A DNA stretch of 64,000 nt from Haloplanus salinarum (GTDB taxonomy: Archaea; Halobacteriota; Halobacteria; Halobacteriales; Haloferacaceae). Shown one piece after another: positions 1 to 50,707 of the stretch; position 1 is the first letter of the stretch; each line of letters begins with the position of its first letter. The notes below the pieces were generated by a model. It was not told the DNA's origin, did no database searches, and was given only the letters and a program-made list of their open reading frames with translations. The stretch is from assembly GCF_024498175.1 (NCBI RefSeq), contig NZ_CP101823.1, positions 1,302,001 to 1,366,000 of the forward strand. Direction: 5' to 3'. Both the position numbers and the translations under genes were made by a program.

Positions 1-263
<263 letters not shown>

Positions 264-267
<4 letters not shown>

Positions 268-644
268 GCGTCCCCACCTTCCTGTTCAGCGATGTAGCGT
301 TCGACAGCTCCCTTCGAGGCGCTTCCCGCTGTTCCGACGTAGTACGAGCCAGTCCACTTCACGCGGTCGGCGTAGCGTTGGTTGTACTTCCGCGCGGAGA
401 TGCCCTTGACCCAGTTGACGATGAGGGACGGGGCGTTCTTGGGTGGACTCCCGATGACCAAGTGTACGTGGTCGGGCATGACCTCCGACTCGGCCAGTTC
501 GAGGTCTTTGTCTTCACAGATTTTCGCGAAGATGGTTTCGAGACGTTCCTTCGTCTTCCCCGTCAGGTTCGAACATCGGTATTTTGGCACGAACACTATG
601 TGGTAGTAGAGTTCGTATTTCGCGTGACGGGTACTCTTCACCAT
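264..644 (-). CDS. tnpA: IS200/IS605 Y1 (HUH) transposase TnpA
   Basis: A 126-residue protein of normal length for the single-strand DNA transposase TnpA. The metal-binding HUH motif is His59-Val-His61 within PDHVHLVIG. The nucleophilic tyrosine is probably Tyr117 in the C-terminal helix (VERYIAEQ). Such enzymes act as dimers and cut and join single-stranded element ends at subterminal hairpins. The stop overlaps the start of tnpB, so the two would be co-transcribed. TnpA looks intact while its tnpB partner is frameshifted, so the element may still move although tnpB is broken. Confidence 0.93.
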
Positions 645-786
645 CTATGTATACTATCACGGTCGGACAGATTGAAGATTGCGTTGGAACCCCGTCTATG
701 CCATCGTTGGCGGTTGAATACTGTTGGTCGGCTTCATCCCCGTCCTGAAGGACGAGGCTTTCGCCTCGATTTTCCGTAATATCCGC

Positions 787-2181
787 TCAAGTATTACAGT
801 ACGTTGTATACTCTGCATCGAACTCTCGTGGCGGTGGTTGCTGGAATTGTGGACCCATGTCCTTCGATGTATAGGGGTTTTCCAACACGGTCAGTAACCT
901 CTTGAATTTGGATAGATACCGGGTTTCGAGATACTCATCCAGTGCCTCTTCAACTAGGTAGTTGCGGGGGATATACCGCGGATTGGCTTCCTGCATCAAC
1001 TCCTCATCCAGGCCGACAGCAGCCAACTTATTCCTAAGCCGTTCGAATTCTGCAGTTGCAAACGCTGGGTCATCAAACGTACCGGGCGTCTCTAATTCGA
1101 GGAACGTATTGGTATAGTCTGCGTTCGATTTGCGAAGCCACTCCAAGAATTCATCGACGAGTTCTTTCTCGCCATCTGAGTTGATCCCCAGTTTCCTCCG
1201 CATCATCGTGTAGTATTGCGCGTCAAATCGATCCTCGAACTCGTCTAGTTTGCCTTCGATTTCATCATACGTGAGCGCTGACTGTGTACACAGCGGTTGG
1301 AGTGCCTCTGCGAACCGTTCGAGATTCCACCGCAAGATGGGTCGCTGGTTTCCGAATGCATATCGCCCGTGCTTATCGATTGAGCTGAACACCGTCTCCT
1401 CATTATAGTAATTCATGAAGGCACAGGGTCCGTAATCAAATGTTTCTCCATCGATACTCATATTGTCCGTATTCATGACGCCATGAATGAATCCGACACG
1501 TAACCAGTCAACGACCATCTCGATCGACGACTGCATGACTGCATCGAAGAACTCTAGGTACGTACGATCTTTTTCATTTAATTGCGGGTAGTGCCGGTCA
1601 ATAACGTAGTCAGTGAATCGCCGTAGTTCGTCGGATGCCTGGCCTGCAACGTACTGGAAGGTCCCGTATCGAATGTGACTGTTCATCACTCGGACAAGGG
1701 TGGCTCCAGGTTCTGTCTGTCGTCGTTCGACTGCTTCGTCAGTTTCGACGACTGCCAGAATTCTCGATGTTTTGATGTTTAGATTCTGCATCGCATATGA
1801 ATACAGATACTCTCTGAGCATCGAGCTGACAGTTGCGTTGCCATCGCCTCTTCCGGAGTACGGCGTTCGACCGGACCCTTTCAGTTGAATATCGTATCTA
1901 TTACCATCGTGCACATGTTCGCCGAGTATCATCGCTCTCCCATCGCCCAAGACGGTAAAACTTCCATACTGGTGGCCTGCATATGCTTGGGCGATTGGTT
2001 CTTCCAAACGGTCCTGGCCTGCTAGAATCTTAGCATTGAGCTTCGTTATATCCAATCCAAGATCAGCACATAGCCCGTCATTAAGAACCAAAATTTTGGG
2101 ATTAGCGATACTTTTGGGCGTTACTCTCGAATAGAGGTTCGAGTCTAAATCCTTGTAAGTGGTATCAAATGAAAAGACCAT
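787..2181 (-). CDS. selO: SelO/YdiU family protein adenylyltransferase
   Basis: A 464-residue member of the SelO pseudokinase family, close to the usual bacterial length (about 480). Family landmarks are AGHQYG (68-73), LGDGRA (78-83), the glycine-rich KGSGRTPYSG-RGDG segment (101-114) and HGVMNTDNM...DYGP (233-252), which carries the metal-binding Asn/Asp residues. Characterised SelO proteins transfer AMP from ATP to Ser/Thr/Tyr of target proteins and respond to oxidative stress. It stands alone between the IS605 element and a repeat, with no operon partner. Its codon use is AT-richer than most neighbours, which may indicate transfer. Confidence 0.93.
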   Translation of the reverse strand: MVFSFDTTYKDLDSNLYSRVTPKSIANPKILVLNDGLCADLGLDITKLNAKILAGQDRLEEPIAQAYAGHQYGSFTVLGDGRAMILGEHVHDGNRYDIQLKGSGRTPYSGRGDGNATVSSMLREYLYSYAMQNLNIKTSRILAVVETDEAVERRQTEPGATLVRVMNSHIRYGTFQYVAGQASDELRRFTDYVIDRHYPQLNEKDRTYLEFFDAVMQSSIEMVVDWLRVGFIHGVMNTDNMSIDGETFDYGPCAFMNYYNEETVFSSIDKHGRYAFGNQRPILRWNLERFAEALQPLCTQSALTYDEIEGKLDEFEDRFDAQYYTMMRRKLGINSDGEKELVDEFLEWLRKSNADYTNTFLELETPGTFDDPAFATAEFERLRNKLAAVGLDEELMQEANPRYIPRNYLVEEALDEYLETRYLSKFKRLLTVLENPYTSKDMGPQFQQPPPREFDAEYTTYCNT

Positions 2182-2275
2182 TTGATTTCATATGTTGTCA
2201 TGTTGCTTGCTTCAAGAATCTTGTCTTTGGAAATATTAATCATCGATCGATTAGAGAGGTTCAAATTGGCGTGTA

Positions 2276-2367
2276 CTGCATAGACGCTCTGTATCGGTCA
2301 CGCCTCTACTGGCAGACGATGAGGAGATCGGAACGGCGGCGCTGCATACAGTGCGCGAATGCAGCAC
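2276..2367 (+). repeat. 92-bp interspersed repeat, copy R1 (upstream of hicBA)
   Basis: Starts CTGCATAGACGCTCTGTATC and ends GCTGCATACAGTGCGCGAAT followed by GCAGCAC. A second 92-bp copy with the same start and end motifs in the same orientation lies at 3002-3093, on the other side of hicBA. The last 25-30 bases recur in shorter form at 18.6, 20.4, 28.4, 45.3 and 50.7 kb. GCTGCAT...ATGCAGC forms a short palindrome inside the right end. It is probably a solo IS end or a MITE; no transposase belonging to it is present. Confidence 0.7.
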
Positions 2368-2419
2368 GGAGTCCACTATACACACCAGATTTATTCGACT
2401 CCCAAGTCTCTCTGGTGAT

Positions 2420-2704
2420 ATGAGTACAGACATCGACGACCCCGGCGACGAGGAGCCCACACTACCGGTCAACATTTCACTATCGCTTGGCGAGAGCGGC
2501 GACATGTGGGTCGCTCGTGACGAAGACACCGGTGTCACGTCACAAGGACAGACCCGAGAGGCCGCGCTCGAAAACCTTGACGAGGCCGTTGTCGGCTATC
2601 ACGGTGCCGGAGAGTCACCGAGCGACGAGGAGCTCCGTGCGATGGGGATTGACCCGAAACAGAACACCTCCGGGTCGCTGGACGAGTCTGACGTGTTCCA
2701 GTGA
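2420..2704 (+). CDS. hicB: HicB-family antitoxin
   Basis: A 94-residue acidic protein with the HicB core: an N-terminal strand region (VNISLSLGESGDMWVARDEDTGV) followed by SQGQTREAALENLDEAV, the conserved turn and helix of the partial RNase-H fold. HicB neutralises the HicA mRNA interferase and usually represses its own operon. I place the start at the ATG at 2420, where acidic coding sequence begins; an in-frame ATG at 2351 would add an improbable basic leader from inside repeat R1. The HicA gene follows after 4 bases. The gene order is antitoxin first. Confidence 0.88.
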   Translation: MSTDIDDPGDEEPTLPVNISLSLGESGDMWVARDEDTGVTSQGQTREAALENLDEAVVGYHGAGESPSDEELRAMGIDPKQNTSGSLDESDVFQ

Positions 2705-2708
2705 CCGC

Positions 2709-2963
2709 ATGGCACACGGACCGTTTTCCGGCAAGGAGATCGTGAAGGTGATGGTGAACAGCGGTATCTACGAGTGGGACCGAACGAACGGGGACCACGC
2801 GATTCTCCGCTGGGAACCGCCCGCAGACCACGATTCGGACGCGCGCACTGTTCCGGTCCCGCTGCATGACGAGGTCGATATGGGGACCTTGCGGAGCATC
2901 GCCGAGCAGGCCGGCGCAAAGGATTTCGAAGAATTCTGTGCGTGGATCGAGCGTAATAGTTAG
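2709..2963 (+). CDS. hicA: HicA-family mRNA interferase toxin
   Basis: An 84-residue protein with the dsRBD-like HicA fold: SGKEIVKVMVNSGIYEWDRTNGDHAILRW, where the His of the GDHAIL motif matches the catalytic His of the family, and a C-terminal helix LRSIAEQAGAKDFEEFCAWI. HicA toxins cleave mRNA independently of the ribosome. It is translated 4 bases after hicB and surely shares its transcript. The pair is flanked by the 92-bp direct repeats R1 and R2, which suggests that it moved as a unit. Confidence 0.88.
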   Translation: MAHGPFSGKEIVKVMVNSGIYEWDRTNGDHAILRWEPPADHDSDARTVPVPLHDEVDMGTLRSIAEQAGAKDFEEFCAWIERNS

Positions 2964-3001
2964 CTCATACTGGTCTGACGTGGTCCAGTGATGACTGACT
3001 G

Positions 3002-3093
3002 CTGAATAGACGCTCTATATCGGTCAACTCGTTATTGGCAGAAATCGAGTAATTAACGAAGGCTCTGCTACATAGACAGCGCGTATCTCGCAC
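3002..3093 (+). repeat. 92-bp interspersed repeat, copy R2 (downstream of hicBA)
   Basis: Same length and orientation as R1. The left end CTGAATAGACGCTCTATATC and the segment TTGGCAGA align with R1, and so does the right end, CATAGACAGCGCGTATCTCG then CAC. The middle is more diverged. With R1 it brackets hicBA (about 0.73 kb start to start). No further gene is seen between 2964 and 3221. Confidence 0.65.
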
Positions 3094-3730: not shown

Positions 3731-4429
3731 GGTCGCGTTAACTTTGGCATCGATTCCACCAGACGGCGAGGGCTTGGAGCCACGATTCTGCGGTCGTCGG
3801 CTCCACGTGGTTGAACGTATTTGAAAACGAAGAGGTTCGTCGTTTTACTTCTCTAAATAGACGTTCGACAGCATTCCGATTGCCATGGAGTTCGTATCTG
3901 CAATCGAGGCCGTGTCGATCGAGGGCAGTTTTGAGCCACTGAGCATCGTCGACGAGAAACACGGCGGTTTCGACGTCGTGTTTCTCACGTAATTCACTCA
4001 GGAAGATTTCGGTGAGACCGGTCGTATACGTGCTAAAGAGCCGGATATGAAGGAATGTGTTCGTTTCAGGATCGATGGCGGCGTACAGCCAGTATTGCTG
4101 ATCGTTGATTCGAATCACAGTTTCGTCGAGTGCAACGTGATTCGGGCTCGCACCGCCTTCGGGCTGTAGATCGGCCTTCTGCACCCAGTTGTGGACGGCC
4201 GTTCGAGAGCGTTCGACACCTAACCTCTCAAGAATCGAGATGGTATTCGAAAGTGATAGTCCTGCCACGTGCATCTGAATACCGAGTCGCATCGCGAACT
4301 CGGGTGTCCGCTGACGCTCCACAAAATCTAATTCGATCCAGTCGCTATCGTCGCTGAGGCGTGTGATTTCTGGCATAGAGCACTACGAAATCATCACGCC
4401 TCACTCTTCACGCTTAACTTGACACGACC
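3731..4429 (-). mobile_element. IS6-family insertion sequence, copy 1
   Basis: A 699-bp element bounded by imperfect terminal inverted repeats: GGTCGCGTTAACTTTGGC at 3731 and, reversed, GGTCGTGTCAAGTTAAGC ending at 4429. The single transposase gene lies on the minus strand. It is nearly identical to copy 2 at 8340-9037. The 8-bp flanks differ (AACTGAAT on the left, GATGCCGG on the right), so there is no target duplication. For a replicative IS6 element this fits recombination or adjacent deletion after insertion. The right side cuts a minus-strand gene. Confidence 0.88.
3738..4376 (-). CDS. IS6-family transposase
   Basis: A 212-residue DDE transposase. An N-terminal helix-turn-helix region (AGLSLSNTISILERLGVERSRTAVHNWVQKAD) precedes the catalytic domain: Asp in LDETVIR, Asp in VDDAQW, and Glu in NAVERLFREVKRRT. 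It occupies nearly all of the IS and appears intact. It differs from the copy at 8347-8985 by only a handful of residues (for example N/D in PETNTF and E/K in LREKHD). The product catalyses replicative transposition through cointegrates. Confidence 0.93.
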   Translation of the reverse strand: MPEITRLSDDSDWIELDFVERQRTPEFAMRLGIQMHVAGLSLSNTISILERLGVERSRTAVHNWVQKADLQPEGGASPNHVALDETVIRINDQQYWLYAAIDPETNTFLHIRLFSTYTTGLTEIFLSELREKHDVETAVFLVDDAQWLKTALDRHGLDCRYELHGNRNAVERLFREVKRRTSSFSNTFNHVEPTTAESWLQALAVWWNRCQS

Positions 4430-4576
4430 GATGCCGGCACGAAAGAACTCTTCAGTCTCCGCGACCCGGTCCAGCAGTCGGCCAACGGCTTGGCGATACA
4501 TCTCCCGCATTTGTTCGATGGAGAGGTCTCGCACATGCTCGCGATGGGCGTGGCCGAGTGGTGTATAGACCGGCAC
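4430..4576 (-). pseudogene. N-terminal fragment of an unknown gene cut by IS6 copy 1
   Basis: From an ATG at 4576 the minus strand encodes about 49 residues (MPVYTPLGHAHREHVRDLSI...TEEFFRAGIG), then enters the IS6 terminal repeat at 4429. The frame closes inside the IS at 4394. The sequence looks like real haloarchaeal coding DNA, but I do not recognise the family. The C-terminal part is not found on the other side of the IS, in line with the missing target duplication and a deletion next to the element. Confidence 0.5.
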
Positions 4577-4887: not shown

Positions 4888-5131
4888 TGCATTAACTAAT
4901 GTAAGTTGTGGAAATGTAAATATATATTATCGTCTTCAAAATCCTATTTCGCCGTAACGTTTTATTACCTGGATTTTCGAGGGTATTCGTCCACCAGTAT
5001 CTATTGTCTTGGCCGGATCAGGCGAACCTGGCTTTGATGTGCGGCGTACTGCATTCGCGGGCAGTATCTTGCATTCATTACTAGTCTGGCATCCTTGATC
5101 TATGTGACCGCTCAGTCGACCACAGAGCGCG

Positions 5132-7456: not shown

Positions 7457-8212
7457 ATGAAAATGACCGGTGAGGCCGTGAGGATCGACGAGACCCGTGA
7501 GTTCGAGTTCGTCCTCCAGTTCGAGTCGGGGACCGACGAGTTGATGGACATCTTCCGGCAGTACGAGAGTCTCTCACTGTGGTCGTCCGCGATTTTCGTG
7601 AATGACAATCATATGTGGCGACTCGATCACGCCAAGGGAACCGACGAAGCGCTGAGCGCGTTCGACGGGGTGTTCCTCGACGAGACCCGCTGTAACGAGT
7701 GCTTTGATGTCGACAATTGTGATACGGCGCGCTCGTATCAGGTCCTTGATCGTCAGGAGACGAGTCGAACGATCTACACCCTCCGTCGGGAGATCAAGAA
7801 ATGTCACTCACTCCCACGTTTTGTTCTCGATCACGTCCAAGAGGGGACCGTGTTCGAGTCCCGCCGCGTCGGCGACGAGTACCGCTGGCGCGTCCTCTTT
7901 CCTGGCGACTATCCGATCGGTGATGTGTATGACACGATGGAATCCCACCTTCGCGATGGAGTATCGCTCTCGGTATCGCACATCACCAGTGCCGGCAATT
8001 GGAACGCCACCGAGCGGATCGCCACGGACTTCTCGCCGGAGCACTGGCAAGTGTTGAAAACCGCAGTCACGCATGGTTACTACGAACGACCGCGGGAAGT
8101 GTCCGTCTCCGATCTGGCGTCAATACTCGACGAACCCCGTTCGACGGTCCAGTATCGGCTTCGGACTGCCGAAGACCGCATTGTGTCGCAGTTTGTCGAG
8201 CAGACACTCTAA
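7457..8212 (+). CDS. HTH_10 (bacterio-opsin activator-type) transcriptional regulator
   Basis: A 251-residue protein. The C-terminal 55 residues (LKTAVTHGYYERPREVSVSD LASILDEPRSTVQYRLRTAE) are the HTH_10 domain of haloarchaeal Bat-type regulators. The N-terminal 190 residues form a sensor-like region with a cysteine cluster (Cys in RCNECFDVDNC and in KKCHS) that could sense redox state or metal. It is divergent from the DPSL-ferredoxin-DCC operon and precedes cydAB, so control of oxidative or oxygen-limited functions is plausible. A deleted second copy lies just after cydB. Confidence 0.85.
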   Translation: MKMTGEAVRIDETREFEFVLQFESGTDELMDIFRQYESLSLWSSAIFVNDNHMWRLDHAKGTDEALSAFDGVFLDETRCNECFDVDNCDTARSYQVLDRQETSRTIYTLRREIKKCHSLPRFVLDHVQEGTVFESRRVGDEYRWRVLFPGDYPIGDVYDTMESHLRDGVSLSVSHITSAGNWNATERIATDFSPEHWQVLKTAVTHGYYERPREVSVSDLASILDEPRSTVQYRLRTAEDRIVSQFVEQTL

Positions 8213-8339
8213 TGGGGGCAATAGAAGGGAGATAGCTCCATATGCATTGATCGGTCTCAGCCCGAGCCACGTAGCAATCGTCCGGTTCTGACTCACCAGG
8301 TTCGTTCTAGTGGTATCTGAGTTTTCGTGTCGGTTCACG

Positions 8340-9037
8340 GGTCGCGTTAACTTTGGCATCGATTCCACCAGACGGCGAGGGCTTGGAGCCACGATTCTGC
8401 TGTCGTCGGCTCAACGTGGCTGAACGTATTTGAAAATGAAGAGGTTCGTCGTTTTACCTCACGAAATAGACGTTCGACGGCATTCCGATTGCCATGGAGT
8501 TCGTATCTGCAATCGAGGCCGTGTCGATCGAGAGCAGTTTGGAGCCATTGGGCATCGTCGACGAGAAACACGGCGGTTTCGACATCGTGTTTCTTGCGTA
8601 ATTCACTCAGGAAGATTTCGGTGAGACCGGTCGTATACGTGCTAAAGAGCCGAATATGAAGGAATGTGTCTGTTTCAGGATCGATGGCGGCGTACAGCCA
8701 GTACTGCTGATCGTTGATTCGAATCACGGTTTCGTCAAGCGCAACGTGATTCGGGCTCGCACCGCCTTCGGGCTGTAAATCGGCCTTTTGCACCCAGTTG
8801 TGGACGGCCGTTCGAGAGCGTTCGACACCCAACCTCTCAAGAATCGAGATGGTATTCGAAAGTGATAGTCCAGCCACGTGAATCTGAATACCGAGCCGCA
8901 TCGCGAACTCGGGTGTCCGCTGGCGCTCCACAAAATCTAATTCGATCCAGTCGCTACCATCGCTGAGGCGTGTGATTTCTGCCATAGACACTCAGAAATC
9001 AGCACGCCTCACTCTTCACGCTTAACTTGACACGACC
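8340..9037 (-). mobile_element. IS6-family insertion sequence, copy 2, with 8-bp target duplication
   Basis: A 698-bp element with the same ends as copy 1 (GGTCGCGTTAACTTTGGC and its imperfect inverse). It is flanked by a perfect 8-bp direct repeat, GGTTCACG, at 8332-8339 and 9038-9045, the duplication size usual for IS6 elements. This marks simple, recent insertion into the intergenic region between the HTH_10 gene and cydA. Confidence 0.95.
8347..8985 (-). CDS. IS6-family transposase
   Basis: A 212-residue DDE transposase almost identical to the gene at 3738-4376, with the same N-terminal HTH and catalytic residues in LDETVIR, VDDAQW and NAVERLFREVK. The ATG at 8985 matches the start of copy 1; an extra in-frame ATG two codons upstream (8991) is possible. 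It appears intact and, given the perfect target duplication, was recently active. Confidence 0.93.
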   Translation of the reverse strand: MAEITRLSDGSDWIELDFVERQRTPEFAMRLGIQIHVAGLSLSNTISILERLGVERSRTAVHNWVQKADLQPEGGASPNHVALDETVIRINDQQYWLYAAIDPETDTFLHIRLFSTYTTGLTEIFLSELRKKHDVETAVFLVDDAQWLQTALDRHGLDCRYELHGNRNAVERLFREVKRRTSSFSNTFSHVEPTTAESWLQALAVWWNRCQS

Positions 9038-9301
9038 GGTTCACGCGGAATCCCAACACCCGCATTCTGGGCTTCGCATTTAGATAGAGGATTGTTGGTG
9101 GAGAGCAGCCTGATGATTTTGTAAGAGCTGAACTACGCGATCGATCCTGAACTGGGGCGAAACCGGTTGACCGAGGAATCTCAGGGGACTCACCCGATGT
9201 ACGAGATCCCAACCAACAATCTACGCCACAAGAGCGTCGATGTAATCCATTTCCTCGCCATAATATAGTAATCGTCGCCTCTACAGATGAGCAAGGCGAG
9301 T

Positions 9302-11941: not shown

Positions 11942-11980
11942 CCCCACCAACCTCTCGTCGTTCCATTCTCCGCTCGGTAC

Positions 11981-12152
11981 TGGTGACTCTCCGATCGGGG
12001 ATGTGTACGATATGATGGAATCATGTCCTCGCGATAGTGTATCACTCTCGGTGTCACACATCGCCAGTGCCGGCAACTGGAACGCAACAGAGCGTATCGG
12101 CTTCGGACTGCCGAGGACCGCATTGTGTCGCAGTTTGTCGAGCAGACACTCC
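11981..12152 (+). pseudogene. Internally deleted second copy of the HTH_10 regulator gene
   Basis: Positions 11981-12090 match the HTH_10 gene near 7903-8020 (GATGTGTACGATATGATGGA, then AGTGCCGGCAACTGGAACGC). At a short shared ATCG sequence the match jumps to its last 60 bases (GGCTTCGGACTGCCGAGGAC...GAGCAGACACTC), so about 130 bp including most of the DNA-binding domain are missing. The similarity continues past the stop (GATAGTTCCATATGCATTGA). The N-terminal two-thirds are also absent. The two copies lie in the same orientation on either side of cydAB. Confidence 0.85.
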
Positions 12153-12200
12153 AGCTGGGGCCATCGAAGGAAGATAGTTCCATATGCATTGAGAACGCCG

Positions 12201-17878: not shown

Positions 17879-18200
17879 TCACACTTTCTTGAAGTGGTCG
17901 TAGACGCGTTCGGTCGTCTGGAGGCTCCGGTGTCTAAGCCGATTTCGGACATCGTAGAGTGTGTGTCCCGCCTCTTCGTGGAGCATCCGGTAGGCGACGC
18001 TGTGACGGAGCGCGTGGGGTGTCACACCATCTGCATCGCCTCGACGCCCGTCGGACCTTCCACGGCTGAACGCCGGCGGCCTCAGCGACCGCGTGGAGCA
18101 TATACCGAACGCCCTGCCCGGTAATCCGATCGGCCTTCCGGGATGAGAAGTAGGTACGCCGCGCCACTACCAGACACAACTCCTGCTGGAAACAAAAACC
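17879..18200 (-). pseudogene. Tyrosine recombinase (XerC/phage-integrase type), decayed C-terminal part
   Basis: On the minus strand, three pieces in different frames reconstruct an integrase C-terminus: KADRITGQGVRYMLHAVAEA, then GVTPHALRHSVAYRMLHEEA, then LYDVRNRLRHRSLQTTERVY followed by DHFKKV. HxxR, the second His (RHRS) and the nucleophile Tyr in ERVYDHF are recognisable. At least two frameshifts (near 18040 and 17955) and loss of the N-terminal domain make it non-functional. It suggests that an integrative element once occupied this region. Confidence 0.8.
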
Positions 18201-18613: not shown

Positions 18614-18675
18614 CTCTGTTGAAATCCTCTGCGGCTGAACGGCGTGCTGCATAGAGGGCGTGTATGCGGGGTTCG
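18614..18675 (+). repeat. Interspersed repeat, copy R3
   Basis: CTGTTGAAATCCTCTGCGGC...GGCGTGCTGCATAGAGGGCG then TGTATGCGG. The whole stretch aligns with R7 at 50643-50707, and the end aligns with R1/R2. It lies about 40 bp beyond the stop of the amidohydrolase gene. No gene is seen between 18415 and 18713. Confidence 0.55.
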
Positions 18676-18713
18676 CGCCGGAGGGGGATACGAGGATCGG
18701 ACCGTTTTGCCGT

Positions 18714-19739
18714 TCAGCAGATAACGCGCCGAATATCGAGCGCTGTCGCCCGTCGGACCACCGCATCGACCGGATCCGAAACGCTAGAGAGGTTGTCCGA
18801 ATCGCCGTCGAGCACCAGCAGCGCGGCGCGGCGGTCCGGCTCGATGACGCCACAGTCGAGGCCGACTGCGTCGGCTCCAGCGGCCGTCGCCATCCGAAGC
18901 ACCGTCCGCGAGGGGAGGTCGAACGTCTTCGCGGTGTACTCCATCTCGCGGAACATCGAAGGTCCGTTCAGCATCACGTTATCCGTCCCGAGCGCCACGT
19001 CGGTGTACTCGAGCAGCGTCTCGACCGGCGGTCGGCCGACCCCGAGGACGCGGTTCGCACGGGGGCAGACCGCGATTGGGACTCCCTGGTCTGCGACCCG
19101 TTCCAGGTGATCGACTTCGGCGTGGACCATGTGGATCAGCAGATCCGGGTTCAGATCCAGCGCTGGATGGATGTCGGTGGCGTCAGGCTCGCCGGCGTGA
19201 ATGGCGAACGGGACGCCACGCTCTCTCGCGGCCGTTCGCTGGTCGGTGAAATCGCCGTCGTTAGCCCCGCTAGCACCGAATCCGTCGGCTATATCCAGGA
19301 CCGCAGGGTTCTCGCTTCCGAAGACGAAGTCCTCGATGTCGAGGCCCTCGGCGGCCTCGCGTAGCGTCCGGGTACCTTCGACGCCGAACTCGCGGAAGTC
19401 GAGGAAGGCGGCCGTTCCAGTTCGTTCCATGAACCGGAGCGTGCGATGCATCGCCTCGACCAGCGTCTCGCGATCGGCCGCCGCCAACCGTCGGTGTTTC
19501 AGGCTGTCGGGCGGGGCCACCGCCTCTTCAAGGCCGAGTCCGACGGCTGCTTCTTTAGCGACCGAGTCCCCGATGTGGGTGTGCGCGTTTACGAACGCCG
19601 GCAGGATGATGCGGCTCGGGTCGCCGTCGCGCTCAGGTATCTCATCGACGGCCGTGATACGACCTCCCTCCACGACGACCCGGCCGTGGATCGGCTCGAA
19701 CGACTGCCCAGCGAGGACGATTCCCTCGATCTTCTCCAT
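18714..19739 (-). CDS. Amidohydrolase-superfamily metal-dependent hydrolase (cytosine-deaminase/chlorohydrolase-like)
   Basis: A 341-residue amidohydrolase. Metal ligands appear in order: His-x-His in LPAFVNAHTHIGD, His in FAIHAGEP, His in MVHAEVDHLE, and Asp in LGTDNVML. A small N-terminal beta domain (GIVLAGQSFEPIHGRVVVEG) and its C-terminal continuation flank the TIM barrel. This group includes deaminases acting on nucleobases and related amidines; the substrate cannot be read from sequence. It is monocistronic. The frame ends ...RRVIC. Confidence 0.85.
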   Translation of the reverse strand: MEKIEGIVLAGQSFEPIHGRVVVEGGRITAVDEIPERDGDPSRIILPAFVNAHTHIGDSVAKEAAVGLGLEEAVAPPDSLKHRRLAAADRETLVEAMHRTLRFMERTGTAAFLDFREFGVEGTRTLREAAEGLDIEDFVFGSENPAVLDIADGFGASGANDGDFTDQRTAARERGVPFAIHAGEPDATDIHPALDLNPDLLIHMVHAEVDHLERVADQGVPIAVCPRANRVLGVGRPPVETLLEYTDVALGTDNVMLNGPSMFREMEYTAKTFDLPSRTVLRMATAAGADAVGLDCGVIEPDRRAALLVLDGDSDNLSSVSDPVDAVVRRATALDIRRVIC

Positions 19740-19983
19740 GCTACAGAGAGACTGGCGAGGCTATATGTGTCTCGTGGTGGTCGTGGGGGACGATCAAACG
19801 TCAGCCGTCTAGGAACCGTTCCCGGTTTTCTGCCGACTGTATCCTCTACATCTTGTACGCCGCTTCTGACACGGAATGGAGCGATCAATACGATTGTGAC
19901 GGATCGAGGGGACAATCTCGACAGCGACGGCTTGTGCAAGAAATCACAGTATTCATCGGATATGGAACGTATAACTTCTCCTG

Positions 19984-20316
19984 ATGACCCACGTTTCGAC
20001 GAGCGACTTAGTCGACAAACTTGAACAGGAAAACACGAACTACTTGGAAGTACTGAGCAAGGACGCGCTGAGCGTCGAACTTGCGCAGTACCCCAATCCT
20101 GAGCCAAAGACGACCCACAAAACTGACGAACTCTACTTCATCATCTCCGGGTCGGGGATGGTCCACGTTGAAGATGAGCGGTATGCTGTCGACGAGGGTG
20201 ACGTGGTCTATGTGGAACAGGGAGCCGAACACGACTTTTTTGACATCGAAGATAAAATCACGGCCCTCGTCGTCTTTGCGAGTGCGGAAGACTCCGTCCT
20301 CGGCCAAGGGCTTTGA
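19984..20316 (+). CDS. Small cupin-domain protein
   Basis: A 110-residue single-domain cupin. Motif 1 is roughly KTTHKTDELYFIISGSGMVHVE and motif 2 is DEGDVVYVEQGAEHDFFDIE, with His and Glu residues fitting a metal site (THKTDE and EH). The function is unknown; small cupins can be dioxygenases, isomerases or ligand sensors. It has no operon partners. ATATGGAACGTATAACTTCT just upstream suggests a short or leaderless promoter arrangement. Confidence 0.85.
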   Translation: MTHVSTSDLVDKLEQENTNYLEVLSKDALSVELAQYPNPEPKTTHKTDELYFIISGSGMVHVEDERYAVDEGDVVYVEQGAEHDFFDIEDKITALVVFASAEDSVLGQGL

Positions 20317-20399
20317 AGAGCTAATCTGCTCCCGCGAACAACTGCCGAACTCAGCCTCTAAATTGGTCGCGTCGCTACTGATAGCGATCGGGGACCTTG

Positions 20400-20437
20400 G
20401 TCAGCTCATGAATACAGCGCGTGTATCTCGCACACCA
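20400..20437 (+). repeat. Interspersed repeat, copy R4
   Basis: ATGAATACAGCGCGTGTATC then TCGCACAC matches the right end of R2 (CAGCGCGTATCTCGCACAC). Only this end of the repeat is present. Confidence 0.5.
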
Positions 20438-21213: not shown

Positions 21214-21349
21214 CAGGACCGCTCCGATCCGGAGACGAAACTTCGAGTATTAGACGCGAGCGTGCACGAAATCGACGGAGTGACGACTACGACCCGGAGC
21301 ACACACAGTCGGCGGTCTGGGTAACACAGTCGTGATACTGAGCCGAACG

Positions 21350-21428
21350 ATACGGTTTATAAATCAGTACCGGTGGTTCGCCAAGACGGTCCGGCGACCC
21401 ATCCGGAAACCGTTGTGATACTCCGTAT
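21350..21428. mobile_element. Palindromic MITE-like element, copy E (degenerate)
   Basis: A 79-bp element: ATACGGTTTATAAATCAGTA then CCGGTGGTTCGCC...GGTCCGGCGACCCATCCGG, ending ATACTCCGTAT. It aligns over its whole length with copy D (59538) and copy C (31641), with several mutations breaking the stem. Its right end coincides with the last base of the stop codon of the minus-strand acyltransferase gene. Confidence 0.75.
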
Positions 21429-22345
21429 TAGGAGTCGGGCATGTCGTCCGCGTCCGGTGGTGTGAGGTTCCGCTGGAACTCGTCGATCCGTTCGACGTCA
21501 TCCGAGAGCGTGTACTCGATGTGGCGCTCCTCACGGTCGTCTTCGAGAGTCCCGGGGTCGTCAGTAACGGATTCCCAGCCTGGTTTGACCTTGACGCTCT
21601 TTGCCGGCGTCCCGACGGCGACATGATGGTTTGGGACGTTACCGTGGACGACCGATTTGGCGCCGACCATGGCGTTGCGACCAACGCGAGAGCCAGCACC
21701 GATCATCGAGTCGGACGCAAGACGGGCGTCGTCCTCGATAACGGTACGGTAGATCGATACGTCGGTCTGGTCGACGATATCGTGGCCGTGACTGTGAATG
21801 GTCGCCCCTTCCGCGATAGAGACACGGTTGCCGACCTCGAGTTCCCCCCGGTCGTCGAGGAGGACATCTCCATGGACGACCGTCCTGTCCCCCATCTCGA
21901 TGTTGTGGCCGTAAGAGAACGTGATACCATGGAACAGCTGAAGATCCTCACCCGCTTCGGCGAACAGGTGGTTCGCGATCATCTGCCTAAATGGTATTCC
22001 GATAGCAAGGTCGCGGGCCAGCGGAGACACGTCGAATCCCTTCCAGAGCCACTGGAGGGGCTTGGATTTCTGGAACTGTTCGGCATCTGTTTCCGCCCAG
22101 TGGTCGGCCTTCACGGTCACGCGACGGGGGTCGTAGGCGTCGAGCCTGACCTGTTCGTCAGTCGAGATTTGGTTTCCCGACTGCCATCGGTCGTAGACCC
22201 CACCGTCACCGTGGAGTCGGGCGAGGACTTCCTGGACGACGGCTGCGGTATCCTCGTTCGAGGCGAGGCGTGTATCGACGCTCTCGACGAACTGATCGAT
22301 TCGTCCCTGAACCTCGGGAGAGAGTGAAACCCGTCGCTTGGTCAT
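21428..22345 (-). CDS. Left-handed beta-helix acyltransferase-like protein
   Basis: A 305-residue protein. Residues about 130-245 show hexapeptide-repeat features of LbH acyltransferases (GHNIEMGDRTVVHGDVLLDD, LEVGNRVSIAEGATIHSHGH, SMIGAGSRVGRNAMVGAKSV, VAVGTPAKSVKVKPG). This is the layout of maltose/galactoside O-acetyltransferase relatives. The N-terminal 60 residues (RRVSLSPEVQGRIDQFVESV) look like a separate helical, possibly ribbon-helix-helix-like, segment. The acceptor is unknown. It is divergent from the SLC13 permease and its TAA meets MITE E. Confidence 0.82.
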   Translation of the reverse strand: MTKRRVSLSPEVQGRIDQFVESVDTRLASNEDTAAVVQEVLARLHGDGGVYDRWQSGNQISTDEQVRLDAYDPRRVTVKADHWAETDAEQFQKSKPLQWLWKGFDVSPLARDLAIGIPFRQMIANHLFAEAGEDLQLFHGITFSYGHNIEMGDRTVVHGDVLLDDRGELEVGNRVSIAEGATIHSHGHDIVDQTDVSIYRTVIEDDARLASDSMIGAGSRVGRNAMVGAKSVVHGNVPNHHVAVGTPAKSVKVKPGWESVTDDPGTLEDDREERHIEYTLSDDVERIDEFQRNLTPPDADDMPDS

Positions 22346-31640: not shown

Positions 31641-31722
31641 ATACGGATTATTGTAACTGGTTGCCGGTGGTTCGCCGAGACGGTCCGGCGAACCACCGGT
31701 AATGACTTACAATAAACAGTAT
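31641..31722. mobile_element. Palindromic MITE-like element, copy C
   Basis: An 82-bp element, ATACGGATTATTGTAACTGG...GACTTACAATAAACAGTAT, with a perfect inner stem CCGGTGGTTCGCCG...CGGCGAACCACCGG. Reverse-complemented, it is nearly identical to copy D at 59538-59618. It lies between the RHH gene and the next gene's upstream region. Confidence 0.85.
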
Positions 31723-50528: not shown

Positions 50529-50642
50529 TGCGGTTCGTAAGTCGGGAGAACGTCAAACCAACGCCGATGATGCTTCCCCAGTACTGGGAGTACCCCCATA
50601 CCTACATATGTCGGAGAGATGTAGTTTCATGGTTCAGTGGCT

Positions 50643-50707
50643 CCGTTGAAATCCTTGGAACCTGATCGAACTGGCGTGCTGAATACAGCGCGCGAATGCA
50701 ACACGGG
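50643..50707 (+). repeat. Interspersed repeat, copy R7
   Basis: CCGTTGAAATCCTTGGAACC...CTGGCGTGCTGAATACAGCG then CGCGAATGCAACACGG. It aligns with R3 over its full length and with the right end of R1. It lies in the space between the halocyanin promoter and the HalOD1 gene. Confidence 0.55.

Follow-up and report, generated by a model that had tools for sequence, protein, structure and literature searches.

A toxin–antitoxin locus, hicBA, lies between two diverged copies of one repeat in the window (the whole 64,000-nucleotide stretch of Haloplanus salinarum DNA analysed here), which raises the question of whether hicBA travels, where the travelling piece would end and what would move it. Haloarchaea exchange genes heavily. 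In this study, we arrive at a reading that we consider likely from comparison of sequences: hicBA would be one module of a haloarchaeal site-specific recombination system, with 29-bp cores as sites, a recombinase that we call IntH (a name coined in this analysis) acting in their spacers, and mini-elements serving as portable sites. Such a dedicated module-shuffling system, if true, would offer a concrete mechanism for part of haloarchaeal gene traffic and would explain toxin–antitoxin pairs such as hicBA at unrelated places. Coordinates are collected in Table 1.

Table 1. Positions of cores, repeat parts and associated genes in the window
Feature	Start	End	Strand	Remark
SelO	787	2181	-	upstream DNA ends at R1 LH core, joined to different sequences in different genomes
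R1 LH core	2273	2301	+	11-7-11 imperfect palindrome; left arm common to SelO-flank sites of other genomes
R1 centre	2302	2338	+	37 bp of mini-element
R1 RH core	2339	2367	+	left end of hicBA module
hicBA gene module	2341	3006	+	extent of 91% identity with Halorubrum ezzemoulense megaplasmid NZ_CP034941.1
hicB antitoxin gene	2420	2704	+	Pfam DUF7387; homologous plasmid genes annotated HicB
hicA toxin gene	2709	2963	+	PF07927, E 7e-12
R2 LH core	2999	3027	+	right end of hicBA module; G005 synteny breaks here (window 3026)
R2 centre	3028	3064	+	37 bp
R2 RH core	3065	3093	+	left end of next module
RH core	18644	18672	+	left end of second array
Amidohydrolase gene	18717	19739	-	between cores
LH core	19830	19858	+	second array
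Cupin gene	19984	20313	+	module in five other genus genomes
LH core	20342	20370	+	RH at 20405, 63 bp on
RH core	20405	20433	+	
LH-centre-RH element	28371	28465	+	degenerate
RH-only core	45269	45297	+	
RH-type core	50676	50704	+	preceded by GGCTCCGTTGAAAT tail

The hicBA module and its ends

The HicA toxin domain adjoins the antitoxin gene, and the 91%-identical plasmid genes are annotated HicB and HicA; hicBA is a predicted toxin–antitoxin pair. With HicAB type II systems it has in common a toxin of the HicA family and a linked antitoxin gene, whereas here the antitoxin domain is that of Pfam DUF7387 and its gene lies upstream of hicA.

An earlier note on this DNA had described 92-bp repeats, equal in length, same-oriented and diverged, at 2276-2367 and 3002-3093 with hicBA between them. 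We found nearly the same limits for R1 (2273-2367) and R2 (2999-3093), with both hicB and hicA bracketed. The two copies share an orientation and align without gaps at 62/95 identical positions (~65%), made up of 24/29 in LH, 19/37 in the centre and 19/29 in RH. Each repeat consists of two 29-bp imperfect palindromes, the cores LH and RH, with 37 bp between them and their starts 66 bp apart; a core is an 11-bp arm, a 7-bp spacer and a second 11-bp arm. The LH core approximates GTGCTGAATAC-n7-GTATCGGTCAC and the RH core GTGCTGCATAC-n7-GTATCTCGCAC, and 15 repeat copies fit one ungapped alignment of 97 columns. No Rfam family matched at E ≤ 1, and we dropped the idea of an RNA element.

The ends of the moving piece are best seen in Halorubrum ezzemoulense Fb21, which belongs to another haloarchaeal family. 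Its megaplasmid (606,697 bp) carries hicBA with 608/666 positions identical to window 2341-3006, and beyond this interval no similarity between window and megaplasmid was found. The match starts inside the R1 RH core and ends inside the R2 LH core, in the LH arm, so that the module ends are the same in the two families, and at its left the Halorubrum copy has a single core without the whole repeat. Within the genus, the sister G005 is 98.8% identical over window 776-3026 and then diverges inside the R2 LH core. That these breakpoints fall inside the 29-bp core points to site-specific rather than homologous recombination. Taken together, the comparisons indicate that the hicBA module is mobile, as proposed in the earlier note, which had a toxin–antitoxin cassette moving between repeat copies; the part of that proposal that does not stand is its whole-repeat ends, the piece having the R1 RH core as its left end and the R2 LH core as its right.

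Across 30 hicB loci in the genus, the full R1-hicBA-R2 form occurs in two (G000 and G005) and a third, in G004, is flanked by two RH cores, one at either side; five others have one or two cores nearby without such a bracket, and 22 have none. Thus the unit sought in relatives does exist, and the other outcome foreseen, a clean empty site, was seen in 0 of the loci examined. Repeats elsewhere were not always without hicBA, and the R1 site has other occupants.

Cores, arrays and the SelO site

Parts of the repeat had also been noted elsewhere in the window, in agreement with our finding that cores recur at 18644, 19830, 20342, 20405, 28371, 28437, 45269 and 50676, with weak cores at 5046 and 23310. 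A degenerate RH pattern matched the window six times against 0.08 expected. In the regions fetched from genus genomes, a palindrome model gave 173 matches above 13 bits, compared with 4 in shuffled sequence; these regions were picked because they carry matches, and the density is not a genome-wide one. The repeat model itself had matches (E ≤ 1) in 12/12 genus genomes, numbering 5 to 57 per genome and 50 in that from which the window comes; no more than 150 candidates were scored in any one genome.

An oriented scan of ~690 kb, again fetched because it carries matches, gave 146 non-overlapping elements (30 LH+RH, 51 LH-only and 65 RH-only) and 0 in shuffled sequence. Neighbouring elements less than 2.5 kb apart lie on one strand in 63/76 cases. 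A grammar in which a gene unit starts with RH and ends with LH fits 40 of the 63 same-strand steps (RH to LH 16, RH to full 11, full to LH 9, full to full 4), while 23 break it, in some instances because one half is obscured by an indel. Of 93 pairs of neighbouring cores spaced 150-2500 bp, 66 alternate in orientation and 27 do not, whereas random orientations gave a mean of 46.6 and no more than 61 in 2000 draws; the close core pairs alternate in all 40 of 40. Homology between fetched regions likewise tends to end at the cores: 96 of 646 ends, a count in which reciprocal matches appear twice, lie no more than 40 bp from the centre of a core, a zone that makes up 1.73% of the bases.

Neighbouring cores enclose one or two genes. 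These can face either way (31 along the unit, 20 opposed to it), and the same modules recur in unrelated contexts. Fifty of 58 listed unit open reading frames (two hicBA loci excluded), together with HicA and HicB of the window, gave 52 proteins that match 49 Pfam families. Among them are cupins (6 proteins), universal stress proteins (3), kinase domains, PPK2, creatininase, low-molecular-weight phosphatase, PemK/MazF with MazE, DUF433 with DUF5615, HicA and one DDE transposase domain. In G005, G007, G008, G009 and G011 there are copies, 87-92% identical, of the window's cupin module (19829-20374), and their ends lie at or near cores. A second toxin–antitoxin cassette is found in G008 (L123 7663-8478), where a MazE and PemK/MazF pair sits between two full elements of a compact array, as the second module downstream of an intact IntH. 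At several array ends (L126, L133, L136, L141, L077 and window 50610-50704), tails resembling GGCTCTGTTGAAAyCCTCAGnnnCTGATAG precede the RH core or follow the LH core in inverse form, and a second type of tail has CTAGTAG and other conserved blocks. The module model proposed below does not explain the conserved tails (GGCTCTGTTGAAA...) at some array ends.

Different joins at a single core were found upstream of SelO. Alignment of the SelO loci reaches the core in 14 loci, which to the right of it cluster into 9 sequence classes; one class joins G000/G005 with G007 solely through a 61-bp mini-element match of 75%, and counted apart these give 10 joins. Averaged over pairs of 9 representatives, ungapped identity is 0.71 both in arm 1 and in the 30 bp leading up to the core; it then falls to 0.53 within the spacer and 0.31 within arm 2, and past the core it is 0.25-0.27. 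Further upstream it is 0.40-0.49, which we ascribe to indels, since gapped identity there is 84-100%. The identity thus breaks at the spacer, where tyrosine recombinases exchange strands. In one relative (G008) the R1 site is occupied by IntH. We had also considered the whole 97-bp repeat as the mobile end and dropped this, since both the Halorubrum copy and the joins beside SelO implicate the core instead. SelO, too, has the behaviour of travelling DNA: it was found in 26 of 170 family genomes, and what is joined at the core upstream of it varies. On its other side, window 1-776 and the DNA upstream (L075 8945-10776) hold an insertion with a Y1 (IS200-like) transposase that interrupts homology to G005.

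The IntH recombinase and a proposed mechanism

IntH is a catalytic-only tyrosine recombinase of ~234 aa (PF00589 49.9 bits, cut-off 27.1), whose catalytic residues we take to be R, K, HxxR, W and Y, assigned by eye. It is present in nine named records, from Salinibaculum, Salinadaptatus, Halorientalis, Halobellus, Halonotius, Haloquadratum (two), Halogranum and Haloarcula, at 76-97% identity. In the class, relatives at E ≤ 1e-40 were found in 44 of 242 genomes, with an identity of ~70% or more in some 20 of these, and 36 plasmid records match; relatives in phage records are halovirus integrases, including PhiCh1 Int1 at 44.7%. A search of PDB sequences returned a designed protein as the sole match, which we discounted.

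The linkage of IntH to cores is close. In a first set of loci, a core lies 33-102 bp after the gene end in 13/14, the fourteenth being a fragment that abuts a core; in a second set, of at least 72% identity, which overlaps the first by a few loci, the same holds in 18/21, with no core called just downstream in the other 3. Among relatives below 58% identity, such a core was called in 0/9. Frequently there is a second core, ~773-796 bp ahead of the gene end, and, judged by eye, the stretch conserved among IntH loci has its limits in the spacers of the two cores. These positions suggest that IntH is the enzyme acting on the cores. Among the genus regions fetched, those of G000 (one copy) and G008 (two) alone had intact IntH, and broken copies were found in G007 and G009. 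A relic of a different tyrosine recombinase (window 17891-18040, minus strand; PF00589 24.5 bits, below cut-off) lies beside the second array (18644-20433), and DNA related to it lies in ~210-aa integrase genes of several genus genomes.

Enzymes of the tyrosine recombinase family bind two inverted arms and exchange strands in the short spacer that separates them. The 29-bp core, with two inverted 11-bp arms and a 7-bp spacer, would be the working site of this kind, and oppositely oriented cores, which tend to alternate, would bound gene modules and spacer modules in turn. A gene module would run from an RH core through one or more genes to an LH core, as for hicBA, and a spacer module from an LH core to an RH core, with either 37 bp between them (R1, R2) or the integrase gene. 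IntH, carried between two cores, would recombine cores within the spacer and so bring about insertion, removal or exchange of modules. What the sequences show directly is the anatomy of the sites, their alternation, where modules end, the return of modules in unrelated contexts, the various right-hand joins at one core and the association of IntH with cores; IntH as the enzyme, the order of strand exchange, circular intermediates and how the mini-element arose are inferred.

How the paired cores of a repeat arose may be judged from their arms. Conservation across 27 distinct full elements is higher in the inner arms (13.0 and 13.9 bits) than in the outer arms (8.9 and 8.7 bits). Outer arms resemble one another more closely than shuffled pairs do, and the same is true of inner arms (p 0.019 and 0.0009). 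Both features fit the insertion of an LH-centre-RH piece into a palindromic target that it splits, the outer arms being the target halves. The two arms of one palindrome do not match above shuffled pairs (p 0.13 and 0.43). A hairpin kept through compensatory changes within the palindrome was dropped, because pairing between arm positions is not more frequent than expected for independent columns. The left end of the mini-element (GTATCGGTCACGCCGTTACTGA) is nearly that of one IntH subgroup, and its right end matches IntH element ends weakly, by eye. The likeness at the left end leads us to read the 97-bp repeats R1 and R2 as int-deleted mini-elements of the IntH element, which probably serve as portable sites. 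Two such mini-elements would leave a gene between two cores, and core exchange could then move the gene.

On a broader scale, we lean towards a class-wide haloarchaeal platform for cassette exchange, a counterpart of integrons or dif modules that may have originated independently, in which the minimal, invertase-related IntH would itself be a module, miniature 66-bp site modules would tag the genes beside them as cassettes, and a shared pool of cassettes (toxin–antitoxin pairs, cupins, SelO, stress and signalling genes) would move between genera, chromosomes and plasmids. The 29-bp core together with IntH would then provide a sequence handle with which to list cassettes in any haloarchaeal genome.

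Alternative explanations and known systems

Nevertheless, the sites could be real and IntH a passenger, with a host XerA-like enzyme or the ~360-aa integrases at work. Several PF00589 genes of ~350-370 aa lie within 3 kb of cores and, among the core matches listed, 10 of 133 PF00589 genes lie within 1.5 kb (1.5 expected) and 15 of 133 within 3 kb (2.7 expected), a test in which the lengths of several contigs are approximate, which is supportive only, and whose result shared genomic islands could also give. Cores also occur in genomes without detected intact IntH: five sampled genus genomes (G001, G003, G004, G006 and G009) have cores yet no IntH match at E ≤ 1e-40, and recombinases other than IntH may therefore act there. 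As a general account we regard this as unlikely, since IntH alone is seen core-bounded at fixed distances on both sides.

A true integron, with IntH an integrase of the IntI type and the 97-bp repeat an attC site folded as single strand, seems improbable to us. It would account for the pairing of inverted simple sites around a central spacer, for the diversity of genes in the arrays and for an integrase next to a site. The matching of LH and RH arms across the element reported above is likewise what folding needs, and the insertion model predicts the same. Against it, IntH scores 22.4 bits with the integrase_gron model, for which the cut-off is 265; single-strand folding gave z-scores of -1.61 to +0.51 (eight folds, six elements); gene directions are mixed, as counted above; and the arrays are dispersed over the genome and not gathered on one platform, with IntH lying between two cores.

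Very improbable, in our view, is that homologous recombination between dispersed, otherwise inert repeats swaps the enclosed genes. The repeats are indeed dispersed and same-oriented within arrays, and G000 and G005 differ across R2. Yet R1 and R2, at just 65% identity, would make a poor substrate, identity decays within the 7-bp spacer of the 29-bp core in which the breaks fall, and the left boundary of the Halorubrum copy is one core with the remainder of the repeat absent.

Least probable of all is a composite transposon or MITE pair driven by a transposase of the DDE or Y1 type, which the IS240-like gene (3738-4376) and the Y1 gene (264-644) close by and the inverted IS-end-like tails at some array ends might suggest, but R1 and R2 are direct and not inverted, the ends of the adjacent IS240-like element are unlike the repeat, module ends are cores on both sides and in different families, and it is IntH, not the nearby transposases, that is consistently core-bounded. 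Direct kinship of the repeat with this IS240-like element was dropped for the same difference in their ends. The loci examined yielded no clean empty site in which a target duplication could be read.

Returning to the core/IntH reading, the nearest described system is that of the dif modules of Acinetobacter plasmids, joined here by a dedicated predicted recombinase. The accessible part of one account describes pdif modules as small and often toxin–antitoxin, with alternating C and D modules shuffled between replicons, and presents these plasmid modules as confined to Acinetobacter (PMC13141974). Both systems have modules bounded by oppositely oriented, asymmetric short sites of alternating orientation (here 66/93, and 40/40 for close pairs). 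They differ in the site, which in Acinetobacter is a XerC site, a 6-bp spacer and a XerD site and here an 11-7-11 core with its own sequence, and in the setting, as Acinetobacter dif modules lie on Rep_3/OrfX plasmids and are moved by XerCD, whereas those described here lie on haloarchaeal chromosome and plasmids. In addition, the recombinase gene is here itself a module, and tiny 37-bp modules lie between genes. Exchange of the dif-module kind would thereby become testable outside Acinetobacter, with a linked candidate enzyme.

Integrons, including those of archaea, also combine arrays of diverse gene cassettes with a tyrosine recombinase and recombination sites, and the portion of text available places archaeal integrons in metagenome-assembled genomes of nine phyla (PMC9668308); in that same portion, the strings 'Halobacter' and 'haloarchae' had 0 matches (PMC9668308). 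In contrast to integrons, IntH is by model score not an IntI, genes lie both ways, no stable attC-like fold was seen in the six elements folded, and there is no single platform with an attI. A further relation is to Int1 of the haloviruses PhiCh1 and PhiH1, an IntH-related integrase with flanking inverted repeats; as far as the available part of the source goes, PhiCh1 Int1 lies in an invertible tail-fibre region and the integrase is flanked by inverted repeats (PMC6210493). Int1 differs in switching viral tail-fibre genes, and cores of the present type accompany none of the nine IntH relatives below 58% identity. In the accessible text of a review on archaeal tyrosine recombinases, 'cassette' and 'miniature' are absent (PMC8371274). 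By title or opening of abstract we found no published description of a haloarchaeal core/IntH system, subscription papers and preprints being outside this coverage.

The window also holds other repeated DNA. An ~80-bp repeat (GTACCGGTGGTTCGCC...) at 21349-21431, with related copies at 31661 and 59557 and dozens across the genus genomes, is a separate dispersed family. Two similar IS240-like insertion copies lie at 3731-4430 and 8340-9038 (95% over the first 300 bp), and a duplicated segment, 81-91% identical, lies at 7895-8250 and 11973-12192.
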